64,000 nucleotides of DNA, from assembly GCA_020852815.1 (NCBI GenBank), contig JADZAN010000010.1:1-64000 (forward strand). Reading direction: 5' to 3'. The position numbers and the translations under genes are program-made. Source of the stretch: Gemmatimonadaceae bacterium. Lineage in GTDB: Bacteria; Gemmatimonadota; Gemmatimonadetes; Gemmatimonadales; Gemmatimonadaceae. The notes under the pieces were generated by a model. The model searched no databases and was not told the DNA's origin. It saw nothing but the letters and a program-made list of their open reading frames with translations. Shown piece by piece: positions 12,642-21,640 of the stretch. Numbering within the stretch: the first letter of the stretch is position 1; each line of letters starts with the position of its first letter.

Positions 12642-12918
12642 CCTTCGGGCGCATTCCGCTCTGACAATGTGTGTGAGACACCGACCTCCCCGCAGTTTGG
12701 TGTTCGAGGGTGATCGAGGATGTCGTTGTGTCGTCTGCTCTTGCCTCTTCCGTTGTGACTGCGCTGTATGCGGGGGTGTCAGCCACCCAGAAACCAGGAG
12801 CGGTTCACCGCGCCATCCTGCCTAACAGTTGCTGATTCGGTACGCTGGCACGTCGTCTTCCTACCTGCTGCAATCGGTGAGAGCGCCGTCGTTCTCCCAT
12901 CACGCTGGATTCGAGGCA

Positions 12919-14058
12919 ATGCGCTATTCGTCTCGCTGTGTCGCGGTGCTGTTGATCCACGCCGTCTCCGTCGCGGGGTGGTCGCAATCGCCCGCGCGGT
13001 GGACCGTCGCACCCAACCCCACGGTGACCATCGGCGGGGCTGCGGCAGACACCACCGACCTCTTGACCGCCGCAGTCGGCGCAACACGGTTGCCGGACGG
13101 AAGAATTCTCGTTGGGGACAATGCCGACTTTTCCCTGAGACTCTTCACCGCCAGCGGCAGGTTCTTGCGCGCGTATGGAAGGAAGGGGAACGGCCCGGGC
13201 GAGATCGGTCAACTCGGCGCGCTTCTGCGCTGTGGTGACTCACTGGTAACGTTTGATCTGGACGGTGACCGCGCCTCCGTTTTCTCACCCGATGGACGAT
13301 ACGTTCGCAGCTTCCGGTTTGATGCGCCCGGCGCTAGCCGCTCTCCGTACCAATCCCGCTGCAATAGTAACGGCTTCTTCGCGCACTTCGGGTGGGAACC
13401 CGAGAGTGACACTAAAACCGGAGTGTACCGCCCGCTGGTTCCATTCTGGCTTTCGGGAACGAACCCTGCAGTCCGACGCGTCTTCGGGCGCTTCGCCGGC
13501 TCAGAACGTTATGGAAGCGTGGCGACAAACGGAGTCTTCGGGTCGCGTCCCCTGCCGCTCGGAAAACAGCCGGTGGTCGCGGTCGGGACGAACCGGGTGT
13601 ACTTGGGCACTGGGGATCGCTACGAGATCCTGGTGTTCGATTTCTCGGGAAAGCAGTTGGCGCCGATTCGAAAGGGCGGCGTCGATCTTGAGACGACGAG
13701 TGACGACATCCGCTACGCCAAAGAGCGGGAGATCGCCAATTCTGGGCCACGTGCGCGCGCGAGTGTTGAGCGGGATTACAGCGCGATGCCGTTGCCAAAG
13801 ACGGTCCCAGCATACGCAGGGCTTGTCGTCGACGCGGACGGACACCTGTGGGTGCAGGATTACCCGCGTGGCAGGGCCACGACCGTATCGTGGTCGGTTT
13901 TCGCACCTGACGGGCGATTGGTCGCGGAGATTCCTCTTCCCGTCCACCTCGAAGTGTACGAGATCGGCAGGGATTATGTGCTCGGGCGTTTCTTGGATCC
14001 GGATGAGTCGGTACCGCAGATCAGGCTGTACCGGTTGAATCGATCTATGCGTCGCTAA
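12919..14058 (+). CDS. Secreted six-bladed beta-propeller protein
   Basis: A 379-residue exported protein with a Sec signal peptide (about residues 1-23). NHL/6-bladed-propeller-like repeats are visible, for example LPDGRILVGDNADFSLRLF, the family-typical GRKGNGPGE, and SPDGRYVRSFRF, with later blades VYLGTGDRYEILVFDF and VVDADGHLWVQDYP. Such proteins bind ligands or other proteins at the cell surface; no enzyme activity is implied. It is a paralogue of the propeller gene at 17188-18414, with shared GRKG[N/G]GPGE. The ATG at 12919 fits the signal peptide; an earlier frame start at 12829 does not. The gene ends exactly where IS21 remnants begin. Confidence 0.8.
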   Translation: MRYSSRCVAVLLIHAVSVAGWSQSPARWTVAPNPTVTIGGAAADTTDLLTAAVGATRLPDGRILVGDNADFSLRLFTASGRFLRAYGRKGNGPGEIGQLGALLRCGDSLVTFDLDGDRASVFSPDGRYVRSFRFDAPGASRSPYQSRCNSNGFFAHFGWEPESDTKTGVYRPLVPFWLSGTNPAVRRVFGRFAGSERYGSVATNGVFGSRPLPLGKQPVVAVGTNRVYLGTGDRYEILVFDFSGKQLAPIRKGGVDLETTSDDIRYAKEREIANSGPRARASVERDYSAMPLPKTVPAYAGLVVDADGHLWVQDYPRGRATTVSWSVFAPDGRLVAEIPLPVHLEVYEIGRDYVLGRFLDPDESVPQIRLYRLNRSMRR

Positions 14059-15132
14059 TCACTTCCCGCGCTTGGCCAGTCGGTGCTCGCAATCCGCCAG
14101 GCTTCGTCGAGGCGCGCCTGAGTTGGTTCAGCGAGAATAGTCGCCGGACGCCACGGTGAGCGGCTGCAAGCGCGCCAGCTCGACGCGCCCCGGACCACGG
14201 GCGGCTCCTTGGTCGCGCGCGAGTGACGGACCTCGTTGACCTCGCACAGCCAGTCGGTGAGCTGCCGCGGCAGGTCCTCCGTCAGATCGACGCAGCGGCG
14301 CGCGCGGAAGAAGGCCCGCTTCACGAAACCCACCAGATTCTCCACCGCCCCCTTCTGATCGGGACGGCGCGGGGTGCAGAGCTCGATGCTGACGCTTCCC
14401 TGAAGCCGTAGTCGAGTACGACCTGCGCGAGCGTGGGATTCCACACGATGCGCGCGCCGTCGCGTCGGACGACGACGGTCTTGGGATTGTCGAAGACAAC
14501 GCGCAGCGGCACGCCGCCGCTCGCGGCAAAGCTCGCGAGGAGGCTGCGCACGAGGGGCTCGACGCGCTCCGTCGCCACGACGACCACGTGCATCCAGCGC
14601 GAGTACTTCAAGCGATAGGCCGCGAAGTGGATCCGGCGGCGCGCGTCGCTCGTCACTCGTCAGGCGGACGTCGACCTGGCCGAAGTCGAACTGGGCGTGC
14701 CTCGCCGGCGACCCCCTCGAAGCGCACCATCACCTCGGCCGGGATCTCGGTGCGTGCCCCGGCAATCACCCAGTTGGTCGTCGAAAGGCCGAGCGGCGTG
14801 CCGGCCTCCCGTAGACGGCGCCAGATCTCACCCGGGGCGAGCCCCGGCTCCGTGGTGAGCCAGTCGCGCACGGTCGTGCGCAGCGCCGCATCGACACGGG
14901 GGCGCCCCAGCCGCCGCGCGGCACGCGCCGCGGCGTCATCCGCCGCCGTGACGGCGGGCTCCTTGGCGATGCGCTCCACGGTCAGCCGCGAGATCGCGTA
15001 CTGCTGCGCCACGGCGCCTGGCGTGACGCCGCTGGCGAGCAGCGCCTGGACGGCATGTCGGTCGAGCATCCTGAGCATCCTCCTCGGCGCCTCCCCGGGT
15101 GGGGGCCCGGCCGGTGCCGGGCACGACGCCAT
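14055..15132 (-). pseudogene. Frameshifted IstA-like transposase (element B)
   Basis: Reading 5'-3' on the minus strand, an HTH domain of about 160 residues starts at 15132 and continues, after a frameshift near 14655, into a DDE core in a second frame. It shifts again near 14400 for the QKGAVENLVGFVKR helix, and probably again near 14230, since the expected C-terminal tail is in yet another frame. Three shifts make the product inactive. Confidence 0.75.
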
Positions 15133-15205
15133 CGTGGGTCAGCGGCCCGCGGATGCGACAGACTTCAGAGAAGAAGTGCGACGGATTCTAGAGAACCCAC
15201 AGCGC
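14059..15205 (-). mobile_element. IS21-family element B, decayed
   Basis: An IstA-like transposase is spread over at least three frames: N-terminal HTH part 15132-14653, middle with the catalytic Asp (VVFDNPKT) 14656-14321, and C-terminal part with the catalytic Glu (KGAVENLVGFVKR) 14444-14055. No istB is seen. Its left end, around 15140-15205, has two related TCYGTCGCA boxes about 25 bp apart. That end interrupts the istA of element A, so B appears nested inside A. Confidence 0.75.
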
Positions 15206-16164
15206 CCGGAGCGCGGCGCGCTCAGTCGCCTCGAACACGCTCCGGCGACTGCCAGAGAGCTTCTGGAAGGGGCGGTCGTTCACGCGCTCGCAGCCCAGGG
15301 CGAGCGCCTGGTTGAGGGCGGCCAGCGAGTGGAAGACCTGGTGGCGGAGCGGCGCCAGGATCTCGCGCTCGACGATCTGCACCGTCGTCTCGACCTTGGC
15401 CTTGTCGCGCGGATGCCGGACCCGCGTCGGCAGCACGGCGGTACCGTAATGCGTCGCCAGATCCTGATAGGTCGGGTGGACCGTCGGCTCGTAATAGCAC
15501 GGCTGCCCCACGGCACTCTTCAGGTTGTCCGGGACCAGCAGCGCCGGCACGCCGCCCAGGGACTCCAGCATCCGCACATGGGCGCCGATCCAGTCGGGCA
15601 GCGCCTGCGTCCAGGTGGCCTCGACGTAGAGCAAGTGGCTCGCGCCTAACGCGCCGACGAAGATGTGCGGCGCGCCTCCTCGCCCGTGTCGAGATCGACG
15701 ACCGGCATGGTCATGCCGGCGTAGTCGACAAAGACGCGCTCCCCGGCGACGTGCACCTGCCGGAGCACCGGCTCAAGCGTGTCGCACCACGCGTCGTAGT
15801 GCCGGCAGAACTGGGTATACGGATACCCGTCGGGCGCTGTCGCCTTGTTCTCGGCCCAGAGCAGTTGGCGCGTGACGCCCTTCTGCTTGAGCTGCTGGTG
15901 CACCGTCGGCCAGTCGGGCATCGGCCGGCTGGCGGTCGGCGGCGCCGCCGCTCGCCGGAAGAGCTGGGCCTCGAGCGCCGCCTCGTCGAGAGCCGGTGGC
16001 AGGGGCCACGGGAGCCCCGACGGCTGGAAGCGGGCGAGGTACTCGTGCACGGTGCTCTGCGAGAGCGCGAGGCTCTGGGCGATCTCGCGCTGGCTCAAGC
16101 GCTGGTCGAACCGGAGGCGCAGGGCCTCCCCTACCATTCGCATCGGGATCCTCTCGGCAGGCAC
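15188..16164 (-). pseudogene. Frameshifted and truncated IstA transposase (element A)
   Basis: Codons 16164-15646 encode the IstA N-terminus: an HTH with LSQREIAQSLALSQSTVHEYL, then the first DDE aspartate in VFVDYAG. A one-base deletion near 15670 shifts the frame, and the remainder (to 15188) carries VPDNLKSAV with the second Asp and KAKVETTVQIVER with the Glu. The reading stops at LRALWVL, where IstA normally continues for about 150 residues, so the 3' end has been lost at the junction with element B. Confidence 0.8.
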
Positions 16165-16400
16165 CGCCTCGCTCCGGATTGAAGTCCGGCAGAAGCTGGC
16201 CCCGCGGTGGGATCCCGCACCCCTCAGGTCACCAGGCGGTTACCCGGTGATCGCCTTCGGCCGAAATGGGTGATCGGCTTCGAGCGAAACGGCTGATCCG
16301 CTTCCTCCGAAATGGGTGATGGGCTTGGAGCGAAATGGGTGATCGCCCTCGACCGAAACGAGGGATCGGCATCGACCGAAATACGCACGCGCACCTCAGG
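16165..16400 (-). mobile_element. Left end of IS21 element A with six 23-bp terminal repeats
   Basis: A core CGAAAYGGGTGATCGGC begins at 16262, 16285, 16308, 16331, 16354 and 16377, an exact 23-bp period with variation. It lies upstream of the istA start (16164), as expected for the multiple transposase-binding repeats found at IS21-family ends. The element probably ended close to 16385-16400, about 100 bp beyond the signal peptidase stop codon. Confidence 0.7.
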
Positions 16401-16495: not shown

Positions 16496-17188
16496 CTAGT
16501 GGAGCCGCCGCAGCGTCCGCTCAAGTCGTGCTCCGCGCCATAGACGCCTCGGTGTGCAGCAGTCACCGCTATGGGAAACCAACACCCCCACCACCCGACC
16601 CAATAGATCGCTCGAGGCGAAGAACCCAAACTCGCGTGAGTCTTGACTGTGCTGCCTATTGTCACCCAAGAGAAAGTACTTGTCTGTCGGCACGACAATC
16701 GGGCCCCAATCCTCATTGGTGGGAAAGAAACCGCGCATGCTGGGCCGCTTCACGTAGTCAATCTGCCACTGCATGGCTATCGAGGCGCCGTTGAGCCGCA
16801 ATGAGTCGGTTCGTGCATATGGCTCATCAATGGTATGATCATTGACGTACAGCTGCCCGGCACGCATTTCAACAGTCTCCCCGGGCAAGCCCAGGATGCG
16901 CTTGACCACCCGAAGATCGCCGACGCTCATCCGTTCCGGAAGGCGCGCCAATACCAAGTCGTTGCGCGCCCACGAATCGCCCCGAGCGTACGTAAGACCG
17001 GTCGCACGTCCCAGCCACGTGGGGCGCACCGCGAGCAATACATCGCCGGCCTGTACGGTGTCGAGCATGGACGTGCCGCGGGCGATGGCGGTGATGACCA
17101 AATACTTTCGCAAGACCAGTCCCAGCATCAGCACGGCCACCCACAGGCTGACAGTACCTAAGACGCGGCGACATCCGACACCCGGCAT
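16496..17188 (-). CDS. lepB: Signal peptidase I
   Basis: A 230-residue S26 serine protease that removes signal peptides. A single N-terminal membrane helix (about 12-35) is followed by the catalytic Ser40 (RGTSML), general-base Lys96 (VVKRILGLPGE), and box E LGDNRQHSQDSREFG. It begins with an ATG that shares one base with the stop codon of the upstream beta-propeller gene (TGATG), implying translational coupling. A longer frame starting at 17362 would run through that gene and is rejected. It is probably an extra, cluster-specific copy next to the usual lepB, since the genes before it encode exported products. Element A of IS21 begins about 100 bp downstream. Confidence 0.9.
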   Translation of the reverse strand: MPGVGCRRVLGTVSLWVAVLMLGLVLRKYLVITAIARGTSMLDTVQAGDVLLAVRPTWLGRATGLTYARGDSWARNDLVLARLPERMSVGDLRVVKRILGLPGETVEMRAGQLYVNDHTIDEPYARTDSLRLNGASIAMQWQIDYVKRPSMRGFFPTNEDWGPIVVPTDKYFLLGDNRQHSQDSREFGFFASSDLLGRVVGVLVSHSGDCCTPRRLWRGARLERTLRRLH

Positions 17189-18414
17189 CAGTGACAGCTC
17201 AGGTCCGGGGGCCGACGGTACCGCAGCGCCACCACGTCGCGCTTGCCAAGCCGATCTTCCACCCACCCTAGAATTTCCGAAGACGTGATCGTCCGTGGGA
17301 CGATGTCTCCCACGAGGCGTATCGCTCCAACAATCGTTCCGCGCTGTGTCAATACATGCCAATCATCCCAGGCCGCCTTCCCCACAAAGTCGAATCGCAC
17401 CCACAAGCATCCCTCCTCGTCCATCACGAGACCATCGACTGTTGGAAAGAACTCCGGCCACGTCATCGCCTCGAAGGTGTGGCGAAGCTCCCGGCGATAC
17501 TGAGGCTTCGTTCGATCCAGTTGCTCTGCAACGACGCGAGCAATGCTGGAGTCGGCTAAGGGACGCGCGTTCGCATCGGTCAACGCGATGAGACTGACGA
17601 GAGTGCCGGATGGGGTGAATTGCCCGATACGAAAGCTGTCGCCTGTCGTGAGGAAGAGCGTCGAATCGCCCATGGCGAATTGCGGGCTGCGGGCGAAGTC
17701 GCCGAGTCGCCCCACCTGCTCGGGCCAGCGATACGAATCTGCCCCAAGGACGCGAACGACGCTGCGAGCGAGCGAATCACTGGGGGTTATCAGTACGATG
17801 GGCACCACAGGGCGAAACGGCCCGAAGCGATTCGTCCGCGGTGTCTGGGGCGGCCCTTCGCCAACGAACACGCCGCGCTGGTTGCACGAGAGACGAGAGC
17901 CGAGCGTGCCACCCCCCTGGACGCGCATGTACCTGGTGCCCGTCACGTGTCCGTCGGTATCGAGCGAGGTTCTCACCCCCATGATCGGGTCGTAGACCTC
18001 CAGTCCGCGCGCGCCGCAGCGGCCCAACCACGTCGGAAACTGATACTCTCCGGGGCCGCCGCCTTTCCGCCCCCACCGCGTCGGATTGCCGGACGCTGAT
18101 GCTCCCCGTGAGAAGACCAGCACCTGTGCGCCTGGTGCATCTGCGACTACCACGCGGCCATCAGGTAGGAGGGTGACGTCCTCGGGGTTGCCGAGTTCTG
18201 GCGACGAGTCGTGTGCAGCAAGTACGAGAGCTGTCTGGGCGGTTGCCCAGCGTGGCGCCTCGAGTAAGGCCGCAACGGTAATACGGTGAATCGTCGTCAT
18301 CGAGGAGGGGGACCATGCAGCAAGTTCTGCGTCTGTCGTCGACGTTCCGCGATCTCCGCGACCGCAACAGACGAACGCTCCAAAAGCGCAGAAGAGCGCC
18401 GTACTGCGTAGCAT
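17188..18414 (-). CDS. Six-bladed beta-propeller lipoprotein
   Basis: A 408-residue exported protein. The N-terminus has a short hydrophobic stretch ending in FGAFVCCGRG, so Cys at about 16-17 is a candidate lipidation site. Propeller blades are visible, including LPDGRVVVADAPGAQVLVFSRG and GRKGGGPGEYQFP, which match the six-bladed propeller family and the paralogue at 12919-14058. ATG 18414 is preferred; the frame is open upstream to 18540, but that extension lacks a signal peptide at its start. It is followed by lepB with a one-base overlap and preceded, 202 bp away on the same strand, by the cysteine-rich peptide gene and a hairpin. Confidence 0.8.
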   Translation of the reverse strand: MLRSTALFCAFGAFVCCGRGDRGTSTTDAELAAWSPSSMTTIHRITVAALLEAPRWATAQTALVLAAHDSSPELGNPEDVTLLPDGRVVVADAPGAQVLVFSRGASASGNPTRWGRKGGGPGEYQFPTWLGRCGARGLEVYDPIMGVRTSLDTDGHVTGTRYMRVQGGGTLGSRLSCNQRGVFVGEGPPQTPRTNRFGPFRPVVPIVLITPSDSLARSVVRVLGADSYRWPEQVGRLGDFARSPQFAMGDSTLFLTTGDSFRIGQFTPSGTLVSLIALTDANARPLADSSIARVVAEQLDRTKPQYRRELRHTFEAMTWPEFFPTVDGLVMDEEGCLWVRFDFVGKAAWDDWHVLTQRGTIVGAIRLVGDIVPRTITSSEILGWVEDRLGKRDVVALRYRRPPDLSCH

Positions 18415-18550
18415 GTGAGTCCACGCCTGCCATTCTCGGCATAGCCGCCTTGAGTCCAAGCGGCGCCGCCCGATCAACGGCGGTACTCGATGCGGCGATT
18501 GCCCTATCGTCATATGCGCGCTGATGTTCTTCGTTCTCAACTATGCGCTG

Positions 18551-18583
18551 GAGAGGGGCACCGTACGCGACTGTGCCCCTCTC
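18551..18583 (-). terminator. 11-bp perfect hairpin between peptide and propeller genes
   Basis: GAGAGGGGCAC at 18551-18561 pairs with GTGCCCCTCTC at 18573-18583, with an 11-base loop. It lies 34 bp after the peptide stop codon on the minus strand. No T-run follows in that direction, so it may be a leaky terminator or an RNA-stabilising element instead of a full stop. Confidence 0.55.
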
Positions 18584-18616
18584 TATTCTCAGCTGTGATG
18601 CATCATCGGCGCGAGG

Positions 18617-18823
18617 TCAGTTGCACCAGGGGGTTCCGACCGTGCACTTGTTGCTTTGAGAAGCCGGCGCGCTACAGTCTGCGCAGCAGATGTTTTGGTG
18701 TGTAACGCAGTCTTCGCATCGGACTGTGGACGCCAGTCGTCCGACGCTACTAAGGTTGCTGCCAATCGGTGCGAAGGTCACAAGTGCCAGTCCGGTCGTC
18801 ACGGCGATGAGCTTACTGAGCAT
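18617..18823 (-). CDS. Small cysteine-rich secreted peptide
   Basis: A 68-residue product beginning with a clear signal sequence (MLSKLIAVTTGLALVTFAP, about residues 1-20). The second half has seven cysteines arranged C-x2-C-x6-CC-x2-C-x8-C-x7-C at the very C-terminus. A perfect AGGAGG (18830-18835) six bases before ATG 18823 fixes the start; the longer frame to 19042 has no such site. The size, leader and cysteine spacing suggest an exported disulfide- or thioether-rich peptide, structural protein or peptide signal. I do not recognise a family. It sits after the AraC-type regulator and before a propeller lipoprotein and a signal peptidase, all in the same direction. A weak -35-like TTGACG is at 18878-18883. 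Confidence 0.75.
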   Translation of the reverse strand: MLSKLIAVTTGLALVTFAPIGSNLSSVGRLASTVRCEDCVTHQNICCADCSAPASQSNKCTVGTPWCN

Positions 18824-18927
18824 GTCGCTCCTCCTGAAAGCGAGTGGTTGCCCGAAGCTTGAAGGGTGAGTTCGTGTCGTCAATTCGCAGAACCGCAAAT
18901 GTTGTTCGTTCCGCGCAATACCGAGTT

Positions 18928-19785
18928 CTACTGCACGTTCCGCAGCTGCATAACGACGCGGAGGAGAGCAGCGGAAAGTCCACCATTTTGGAGCGCAGAT
19001 CCCGGCGATTGACCCAGATGGCGGCGAAAGTGGCTCGACCACGAGCTGGTGGATTGATGACCACTTGTGGCCGCGACTGCCTTTTGTGACTTACCGGCGA
19101 CTTCAAGGGCCCACAGGGAATGGAGGGCGTGAATCGTTCCAATCAAGGCGCGAGGGGTCATGCCAGTGTCTCGTTTGATACGCCACTCCAAGGTGCGGGG
19201 CGGGATTCCGGAGAGCTGGCTCAGGCGATCTACTCCGAAGCGTCGATGTCCGGCGACAATGAGAAGCGCGAGGAGATCAACGGTCGGCACCGTTAGGCCT
19301 CGCAAGAGAGCACGGGCGAGCTCGTAGGCTGAGCCGTTCGCAGCGACCGCGCCTCCCGGAACCGCAGCGTCAGAGATGGGTTCCACCTCGCGGAGGGACA
19401 ACCGAGCGGAGGGCAAATGGTCGGCGACCACGAGAAGGAGACGCGCGAGACCGATGGACGCGCGCACGCGAAATGTCACGAAGGTGGCTGAGGCTATTCC
19501 TCGCACGGTCTGCCCAAGCAAGACAAGATCCTGCTCGTCCCGTGGGGTGACGTCGGCGACGAAGTGCGAGGAGCGTTCGAGTGTCAACTGCGTCCGCAGA
19601 TCGGAGAACGTTGCGACAAAGGTTAGCTGGCTCGCCGTGGGCCGAAGCTGCTGCAGGACACTACGTTCCTCGGGGGACTCTAGATAGGCCACAAGGCGAG
19701 CACCCTCACGTCGCGAATGTCCCACAGCCACCTGCTCGAACGTCATGACAACGCGCGCGATGTCGAGCGCTCGTAGAGCGGCCAT
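18928..19785 (-). CDS. AraC-type transcriptional regulator
   Basis: The C-terminal 110 residues form an AraC-type pair of helix-turn-helices: RLSQLSGIPPRTLEWRIKR, then an [A]VAATSGHQSTSSWSSHFRRHLG second HTH. The N-terminal part is an unfamiliar sensor-like region. The start is uncertain: ATG 19785 has GGCGGAAG just upstream and is used here, giving 285 residues; ATG 19746, 19938 or 19977 are alternatives, the longer ones adding a Cys/Arg-rich stretch. The gene is first in a run that continues with the cysteine-rich peptide, the propeller lipoprotein and signal peptidase I, so it is the likely regulator of that cluster (inference from position). Confidence 0.75.
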   Translation of the reverse strand: MAALRALDIARVVMTFEQVAVGHSRREGARLVAYLESPEERSVLQQLRPTASQLTFVATFSDLRTQLTLERSSHFVADVTPRDEQDLVLLGQTVRGIASATFVTFRVRASIGLARLLLVVADHLPSARLSLREVEPISDAAVPGGAVAANGSAYELARALLRGLTVPTVDLLALLIVAGHRRFGVDRLSQLSGIPPRTLEWRIKRDTGMTPRALIGTIHALHSLWALEVAGKSQKAVAATSGHQSTSSWSSHFRRHLGQSPGSALQNGGLSAALLRVVMQLRNVQ

Positions 19786-19977
19786 CTTCCGCCCACGTGC
19801 GCGAGGGCGTCGCGATAGCAACGCCGATCCTCGTGCTCGCCAAGTCTCACGAAGGGCAGGACGAAGGTATCTCCCATCCTTACCGAGCCATTCGTGTCGG
19901 CCACAGCAAGTGCAAGTGCGACCTCTGCCGTACGGCATTTTGATTCGGGGATGCCAGTCGTCCAGACGCCGTCTCAC

Positions 19978-20359: not shown

Positions 20360-21640
20360 TGAGCCCCCCCGCTTTCGTGGACACCTCCCATCGACCGACT
20401 ATCGTTCGGGTACGGAGGTGACATATGGGACGGAAGCGACGCGCGTTCAGTACCGAGTTCAAGGTGGAGGCGATCCGGCGCGCGGGTGAGCGCCGGGAGC
20501 GGGGCACGGCCCTCACGGTGATCGCGCGTGAGCTGGGCATCACGGCCGACCTGCGGCGGCGGTGGACCCGCGAGCTCGGCGATGCGTCGCCTCAGGCGGT
20601 GACCAGTCGACAGGAGTTCGAGGCGGAGAATCGCCGGTTGCGGCGGGCGAACGACGTGCTGCGGCAGGAGCGCGACTTCGCAAGAAAGAACGGCGGCGTA
20701 CTTCGCGAAGGAACACCGGTGAGCGCGAAGTACGCCTGCATCGCCGCGCATGCCGACGCGTTCGCGATCACGCGGATGTGTCGGGTGCTGGGCGTGAGGC
20801 CGACGGGGTACCACGCGGCGCAGCGGCGGCCGCCGAGTGCCCGGGCGCAAACGGACGAAGCCGTGCTCGTCGCGAGTCGCACCGTGCATCGGCGGCGTCG
20901 GACGCGCTATCGCGCGCCGCGCGTGCACGCTGAGGTACGGGCCGAGGGCCACCGCGTCAGCCGCAAGCGGGTCGCGCGGTTGATGCAGACCGACGGACTG
21001 GCGGGGCGCCGGCGCCGACGGTTCGTGCGCACCACCGACGCGCGGCATGGCCTCCCGGTCGCCGCCAACATCGTCGCGCGCCAGTTCGCGCCGGCGACGA
21101 TTGGGGCGCCGGATCGGGTATGGGCGAGCGACATCACGTACCTCCCGACGCCTTAGGGGTGGCTGTATCTCGCGGTTATCCCGGATCGAGCCACCCGGGG
21201 GGTGGTGGGCTGGGCGACAGCGTCGACGTTAGGCGAGACGCTGGTGCTGACGGCGTGGCACCAGGCCGTCGTGGCGCGTCAGCCCCCGCCGGGGCTCGTG
21301 GTCCACTCGGATCGCGGCCGTCAGTATGCGGGTCGGGCGTTCCAGGCCGCGCTCACCGCGGCGGGGGCCGTGCCCAGCATGAGCCGAACCGGCGATTGCT
21401 GCGACAACGCCGTGGCGGAACGCTTCTTCGCGACGTTGAAGGGCGAGCGGGTCCCCGACGCCGCGTGGCCCGATGCCCGCGCGGCGTGGCGGGATCTGTG
21501 CGCGTTCATCGAGGTGTGGTACAATCGGCAGCGACGGCATTCGACCCTCGGGTACCGGACGCCCGCCGAGTACGAGACGGTCCTCCGCACCAAGGGCCGA
21601 GCAGCCTAACCGAGGTGTACACGAAAGCGGGGCAAGCCTA
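20360..21640 (+). mobile_element. IS3-family insertion sequence with recognisable ends
   Basis: About 1.28 kb. The ends are imperfect inverted repeats sharing CGCTTTCGTGNACACCTC: left at about 20360-20388, right at about 21612-21640. In between lies one OrfAB-type transposase frame. No convincing target duplication was seen. The element truncates the fragment at 20219-20359. Confidence 0.8.
20425..21609 (+). pseudogene. IS3-family transposase (fused OrfAB) with one in-frame TAG
   Basis: The frame starts MGRKRRAFSTEFKVEAIRR (OrfA HTH and leucine-zipper region), passes without the usual -1 shift into OrfB (SAKYACIAAHADAF...), and contains the DDE residues in WASDITYLP, HSDRGRQY and NAVAERFFATLK. 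One TAG at 21154-21156 interrupts it at TPTP*GWLYLA; IS3 relatives usually have Glu (GAG) there. OrfA and OrfB are in one frame because of about two extra bases near 20693, compared with typical IS3 KKAAAYFAKE coding. Without readthrough it makes only a truncated protein. Confidence 0.85.

Follow-up and report, generated by a model that had tools for sequence, protein, structure and literature searches.

In Bacteroidota, NVEALA peptides (PF14055) are encoded beside six-bladed propellers (PF17170/DUF5128); to our knowledge no role has been assigned to these pairs in gut Bacteroidota, and we know of none for the propellers of Gemmatimonadota. Here we describe an analogous, previously unnamed arrangement in the latter phylum, of which the bacterium studied has one copy. 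The window analyzed, a 64,000-nucleotide stretch of contig JADZAN010000010.1 (Gemmatimonadaceae bacterium, assembly GCA_020852815.1; host genome 5.38 Mb), carries on its minus strand, in order, an AraC-type regulator, a putatively exported cysteine-rich peptide, a beta-propeller, and a signal peptidase I (Table 1). The first-pass annotation of this DNA had proposed these four genes on one strand and in this order, and all of them are present; the 68-residue precursor with seven cysteines and its AGGAGG site can be read directly, and the signal peptidase ATG does overlap the propeller stop (TGATG at 17188, one shared base). The six blades it assigned to the propeller are supported by structural modeling, while the lipoprotein assignment is probable and comes from the N-terminus.

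The module would work like an NVEALA-type locus, with the gene for a small exported peptide beside that for a six-bladed propeller. As in NVEALA loci as generally known, the precursor is short and apparently exported, its cysteines lie in the C-terminal part, and its gene adjoins the propeller gene. It differs in its leader, a hydrophobic run ending in proline, in the odd number of its cysteines, and in the signal peptidase sometimes coupled to it. PF14055 found nothing over its cut-off in 101 Gemmatimonadota genomes, whereas Bacteroides ihuae gives a match; it matched none of 12 family members, and the window peptide has no Pfam match. The earlier suggestion of an NVEALA-like arrangement in another phylum is thus upheld as an analogy, in that a peptide family lies beside six-bladed propellers across Gemmatimonadota, but not as NVEALA itself.

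Two further comparisons are instructive. In Bacillus, the cleavage site of TasA is poorly suited to LepB, and the signal peptidase SipW has been described as dedicated to this one protein (PMC10269814). There, as here, a signal peptidase is encoded with a particular exported protein; SipW, however, is of archaeal type, whereas the module enzyme has the bacterial Ser/Lys form and its putative substrate is a small cysteine-rich peptide. Ranthipeptides and other ribosomally synthesized and post-translationally modified peptides (RiPPs) have been reported from Gemmatimonadota (PMC11651109). The module peptide is likewise ribosomal and cysteine-rich but, unlike these, has a Sec-type leader, and no RiPP-modifying enzyme was recognized among the partly annotated neighbors of the window copy and of the other loci read. 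In the literature searched, there was no description of the module, or of NVEALA or such propellers with peptides.

The association of peptide and propeller recurs well beyond the window. About 100 loci were gathered through propeller homologs, and a propeller profile was built from them; gene starts are those of simple open reading frame (ORF) calling. Small ORFs were filtered for an ATG, a ribosome-binding site, a signal-like N-terminus, and three or more cysteines after it. Of 147 propellers, 12 had such an ORF just upstream on the same strand, compared with none of 557 other genes (Fisher p 5e-9), and 13 of the 14 filtered ORFs in 1.39 Mb adjoin a propeller. A profile of 12 peptides (A5) was then run on 395 Gemmatimonadota genomes, and roughly 25 of these gave matches below an expectation value (E) of 1e-3; matches above it were mostly due to chance. 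Nine non-seed matches below this threshold were fetched (L266–L274), and eight lie directly beside a propeller, a test that is semi-blind because the profile was built from peptide sequences alone. A second profile, run on 179 genomes of the host's own family, added one genome (G342) and, at a weaker E, another (G424), both with the peptide beside propellers.

We regard these peptides, on profile evidence, as a previously unnamed family across the phylum Gemmatimonadota. A BLAST search with the window peptide returned zero homologs in 60 relatives, a null result that was misleading; only profile searches revealed the family. The window peptide scores E 4e-14 and 5e-14 against the two profiles, being itself a seed in both, and has P19, C36, C39, and C47 in the invariant family columns (P26, C44, C49, and C57 in the numbering of the first row of the A5 alignment). 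Between orthologous peptides of one genus, the ratio of nonsynonymous to synonymous substitution rates (dN/dS) is 0.10–0.38, which indicates purifying selection, as on real protein-coding genes. No Pfam or NCBIfam model fits the family, and a resemblance to Kazal inhibitors (E 0.63) was not significant.

The family leader is a hydrophobic run that ends in proline, with V, I, L, F, or M as the usual next residue; 10–20 residues separate this region from the first cysteine, which has A, S, or T before it in 31 of 36 profile matches, and about 25–50 residues follow the leader. Core cysteines are most often spaced C-x(4-6)-C-x7-C-x(9-11)-C-x3-C. The window peptide, with C-x2-C-x6-CC-x2-C-x9-C-x6-C, is divergent within the family and still has its signature: the leader run ending in proline, then C-x(2-6)-C-x(6-9)-C, with cysteines in odd number. 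In every clear family member (34 of 34), the cysteines that follow the leader are odd in number (3, 5, 7, or 9), although these are not 34 independent tests, since the members are related. Only weak matches (4e-5 and 3e-4) have an even number; of these two, one resembles a chance ORF and the other a different type of peptide. Among the tandem copies at L282, two lack the last two cysteines together, a paired loss; tandem copies also occur at L173 and L228. We read the odd count as disulfide pairs plus one reserved cysteine. At two loci (L335 1492–1809 and L336 1498–1827), family peptides have an apparently duplicated nine-cysteine core.

The strict ORF filter also selects unrelated types of peptide beside propellers (contig C42 and loci L087, L085, L076, L228, and L303), which were kept apart from the profile family. 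In the window's own genome, about ten propellers stand in an array on the 30 kb contig C42 (L043, L044), together with four cysteine-rich, apparently exported peptides of other types, two of which share CPxV...C..xDLxEVCGPGCYVxxIG; two further peptides lie near propellers on contigs C12 and C24. A second type found beside propellers (L228 1628–2119 and L312 5481–5711) has a C-terminal C-x3-C-x(4-5)-CC-like motif (FICFWSCGDNLLCC, WICLGTCDGGQCC, FMCKGECRIFLCC). A third, with SNGCG near the C-terminus (L303 1222–1524, L084 3204–3446, L085 510–755, and L090 2520–2762), occurs beside propellers in a Chloroflexi-named metagenome-assembled genome (L303) as well as in Gemmatimonadota.

For the propeller, a six-bladed NHL fold is predicted. 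Its most likely ATG is at 18414 and its stop at 17188–17190; the start of a longer, 450-residue ORF from 18540 was judged too early. An AlphaFold2 model (mf87734ac42ad; mean predicted local distance difference test score, pLDDT, 78.9; predicted template modeling score, pTM, 0.80) has its best fold match in Brat, whose NHL domain is six-bladed (Z 22), and alignments to NHL domains reach Z 22 over 265 residues at a root-mean-square deviation of 3.5. The NHL-repeat propellers Brat, TRIM71, PAM lyase, and BF0058 of Bacteroides fragilis (PDB 4raa) share the fold at about 10–16% identity. NHL alone passes its Pfam cut-off for this sequence (20.6 vs. 20 bits). PF17170 (cut-off 22.9 bits) does not match the module propeller, whereas the second propeller of the window stands at that cut-off (22.9–23.2 bits), and several propellers of this genome pass it. 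The propeller is probably a lipoprotein, as judged from the N-terminus MLRSTALFCAFGAFVCC; the N-terminal MLRSTALFCAFGAFVCCGRG has a cysteine after the hydrophobic run but lacks a canonical L-[ASTVI]-[GAS]-C box. Homologs occur in 101 of 200 genomes of the phylum, mostly at about 24–31% identity, and a collection scan with the propeller alignment (A7) recovered 17 loci, nearly all named Gemmatimonadota. Single genomes of genus g65 (G068, G170, and G171) hold more than 100 propeller candidates.

Matches to TIGR02227 and PF10502, together with filled Ser–Lys dyad positions (Ser40 in GTSM and Lys96 in VVKR), identify the last gene as an S26 signal peptidase I; it is one of three S26 genes in the genome and is very divergent. 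The order of peptide, lipoprotein, and peptidase is found in three genera. At L173 (genome G091, of another family, f5), a peptide, a propeller, a peptidase (TAATG overlap), and a second peptide follow one another on one strand. At L226 (genome G015, of the window's own family), a LuxR-type regulator precedes a peptide, a 398-residue lipoprotein-like protein, and a peptidase (11-base overlap). The L226 peptide has the leader closest to that of the window peptide (GLAAFAPVTS vs. GLALVTFAPIGS). Its 398-residue neighbor has no clear match to the propeller profile, but its homologs (E down to 4e-12) are propellers by profile, most of them with an adjoining family peptide. The first-pass annotation had made its case depend on a conserved peptide ORF beside homologous propeller–lepB pairs in relatives, and such ORFs exist at both loci, in the same order and with overlapping frames. 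Genomes carry about two to three signal peptidase genes, and the chance expectation for such co-location is far below one. Since the peptidase is coupled at only three of about 29 peptide loci, it is an accessory and not a core part of the module. A WQ motif of the three coupled peptidases was rejected as a mark of the module, being common to signal peptidases of the phylum.

Regulatory genes of several kinds adjoin the peptide loci. L173 has a divergent extracytoplasmic function (ECF) sigma factor and a PAS histidine kinase; L229 has an ECF sigma factor, a PAS kinase, and a response regulator; and L228 and L298 have an ECF sigma factor with a zf-HC2 anti-sigma factor. Two zf-HC2 anti-sigma-like proteins (L295 7610–9748 and L298 6900–9191) contain an AhpC/TSA or redoxin domain, one of them with TPR; their genes adjoin those for an ECF sigma factor, a peptide, and a propeller, and these loci are possible redox-controlled sigma systems. 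A DsbA-like thioredoxin gene stands directly before the peptide gene in L335 and L336 and also occurs in the L087 cluster; at these few loci, such neighbors fit disulfide-bonded products. In the window, the end of the AraC gene lies about 105 bases from the peptide gene. That this regulator belongs to the module is something we infer, since no other peptide locus read has an AraC gene at the equivalent place.

The explanation we favor, and hold at about even confidence from the gene sequences, is that the peptide is exported and disulfide-bonded and has the propeller lipoprotein as its dedicated partner. The small precursor would be exported through Sec and its leader removed; the cysteine-rich remainder would fold with disulfide bonds outside the cytoplasm; and the adjoining propeller, bound to the membrane, would be dedicated to binding it. 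In the window and at the two other loci with a translationally coupled signal peptidase I, this enzyme would remove the peptide leader, much as SipW does for TasA. Several observations weigh against this explanation. About 26 of 29 peptide loci have no adjoining peptidase, which therefore cannot be generally needed; the dedicated signal peptidase of the first-pass annotation thus survives for the coupled loci but fails as a core component. A single clade of module peptidases is unsupported, and given this and the long branches (4.9, 3.3, and 1.15), the peptidase may have been recruited more than once. The hydrophobic run lies farther from the first cysteine than is normal in signal peptides, which makes the cleavage site of the peptide uncertain. 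The regulators vary between loci. Most propellers in the phylum lack such a peptide and a single genome can hold dozens of them, and propellers may therefore have a more general role.

Coincidence, that is, unrelated neighbors in a propeller-rich genome, is scarcely credible: propellers are very common here and insertion-sequence-like genes lie on either side of the window copy, but the enrichment, the profile test, and the repeated three-gene order all contradict it. A toxin–immunity or bacteriocin-like pair, in which the peptide would hit competing bacteria and the propeller lipoprotein would bind it and shield the producer, is a less probable but substantial contender. Peptides that are small, exported, and cysteine-rich, and that diverge fast with their leader conserved, would suit this role, as would the tandem copies and the adjoining gene for a probably membrane-anchored partner; yet no dedicated exporter (ABC transporter or C39 peptidase) was recognized among the partly annotated neighbors of the gene, the orthologs within one genus are under purifying selection, and the regulators are of sensing type. 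A cell-surface signaling or sensing role seems slightly more likely, because envelope-response-type regulators (ECF sigma/anti-sigma or PAS kinase/response regulator), or AraC or LuxR types, lie beside many copies. The odd cysteine number of all clear members, with the DsbA-like and redoxin-domain neighbors, would also suit a redox or metal device, in which the peptide would serve in the periplasm as a thiol sensor or carrier, keep one cysteine free, and be read by the propeller and redox-linked regulators. We think this improbable, as no redox neighbors were seen beside the window copy or most others, and DsbA may simply form the disulfides. A surface structure, in which the peptide would be a subunit of an assembly or matrix and have a signal peptidase to itself, in the manner of TasA and SipW, has a very low probability: the signal peptidase co-encoded at three loci, and a free cysteine that could link subunits, speak for it, but the peptides have about 25–50 residues after the leader, are diverse, and mostly lack a peptidase.

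We advance tentatively, and consider rather doubtful, a broader proposal: a secreted-peptide language of Gemmatimonadota, separate from NVEALA, in which exported precursors would yield disulfide miniproteins that reserve one cysteine and are each recognized by a propeller lipoprotein of their own, under the control of envelope-response regulators and, in some lineages, with specialized signal peptidases. Many Gemmatimonadota, which form a widespread phylum with few cultured members, have heavily duplicated propeller genes, and a cognate exported peptide provides these propellers with a candidate ligand; the same logic would bear on the NVEALA–propeller pairs of gut Bacteroidota. As a structural clue the odd cysteine count is sharp, and through the coupled signal peptidases one could study how a bacterial signal peptidase acquires a private substrate.

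Table 1. Features of the module and its surroundings, in coordinates of the window
Feature	Position	Strand	Remarks
AraC-type transcriptional regulator	18928..19977	-	349 aa as called, start uncertain; HTH_18 E 1e-11, FtrA/RhaS-like helix-turn-helix (HTH)
AGGAGG ribosome-binding site of the peptide gene	18830..18835	-	6 bases before the ATG, read from sequence
Exported cysteine-rich peptide precursor (putative), 68 aa, 7 Cys, MLSKLIAVTTGLALVTFAPIGSNLSSVGRLASTVRCEDCVTHQNICCADCSAPASQSNKCTVGTPWCN	18617..18823	-	ATG at 18823; member by peptide-family profile
Perfect 11-bp hairpin, GAGAGGGGCAC...GTGCCCCTCTC, no T-run	18551..18583	-	between peptide and propeller
Predicted six-bladed NHL-type beta-propeller, probable lipoprotein, 408 aa	17188..18414	-	AlphaFold2 model and fold matches
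Signal peptidase I, 230 aa	16496..17188	-	TIGR02227 E 3e-33, PF10502 E 2e-32
Second propeller	12829..14058	+	genome's closest homolog of the module propeller, 31%

The second propeller of the window has no adjoining family peptide. A sigma-70 promoter was looked for and none was found. Hairpin stems of at least 9 bp follow 5 of 17 family peptide genes, compared with 9 of 164 control gaps (p 0.005); this excess is suggestive only, and the hairpin may conceivably set the ratio of peptide to propeller. At 5 of 17, it was rejected as a general feature after family peptides. The module is flanked by transposase-like remnants (minus-strand HTH ORFs, 14128–16164) and by an IS3-type element (HTH_Tnp_1 and rve; 20425–21609), which suggests that the region is mobile. 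Short repeat units (GAAATGGGTGATCG-like) lie at 16230–16390, just downstream of the signal peptidase stop.

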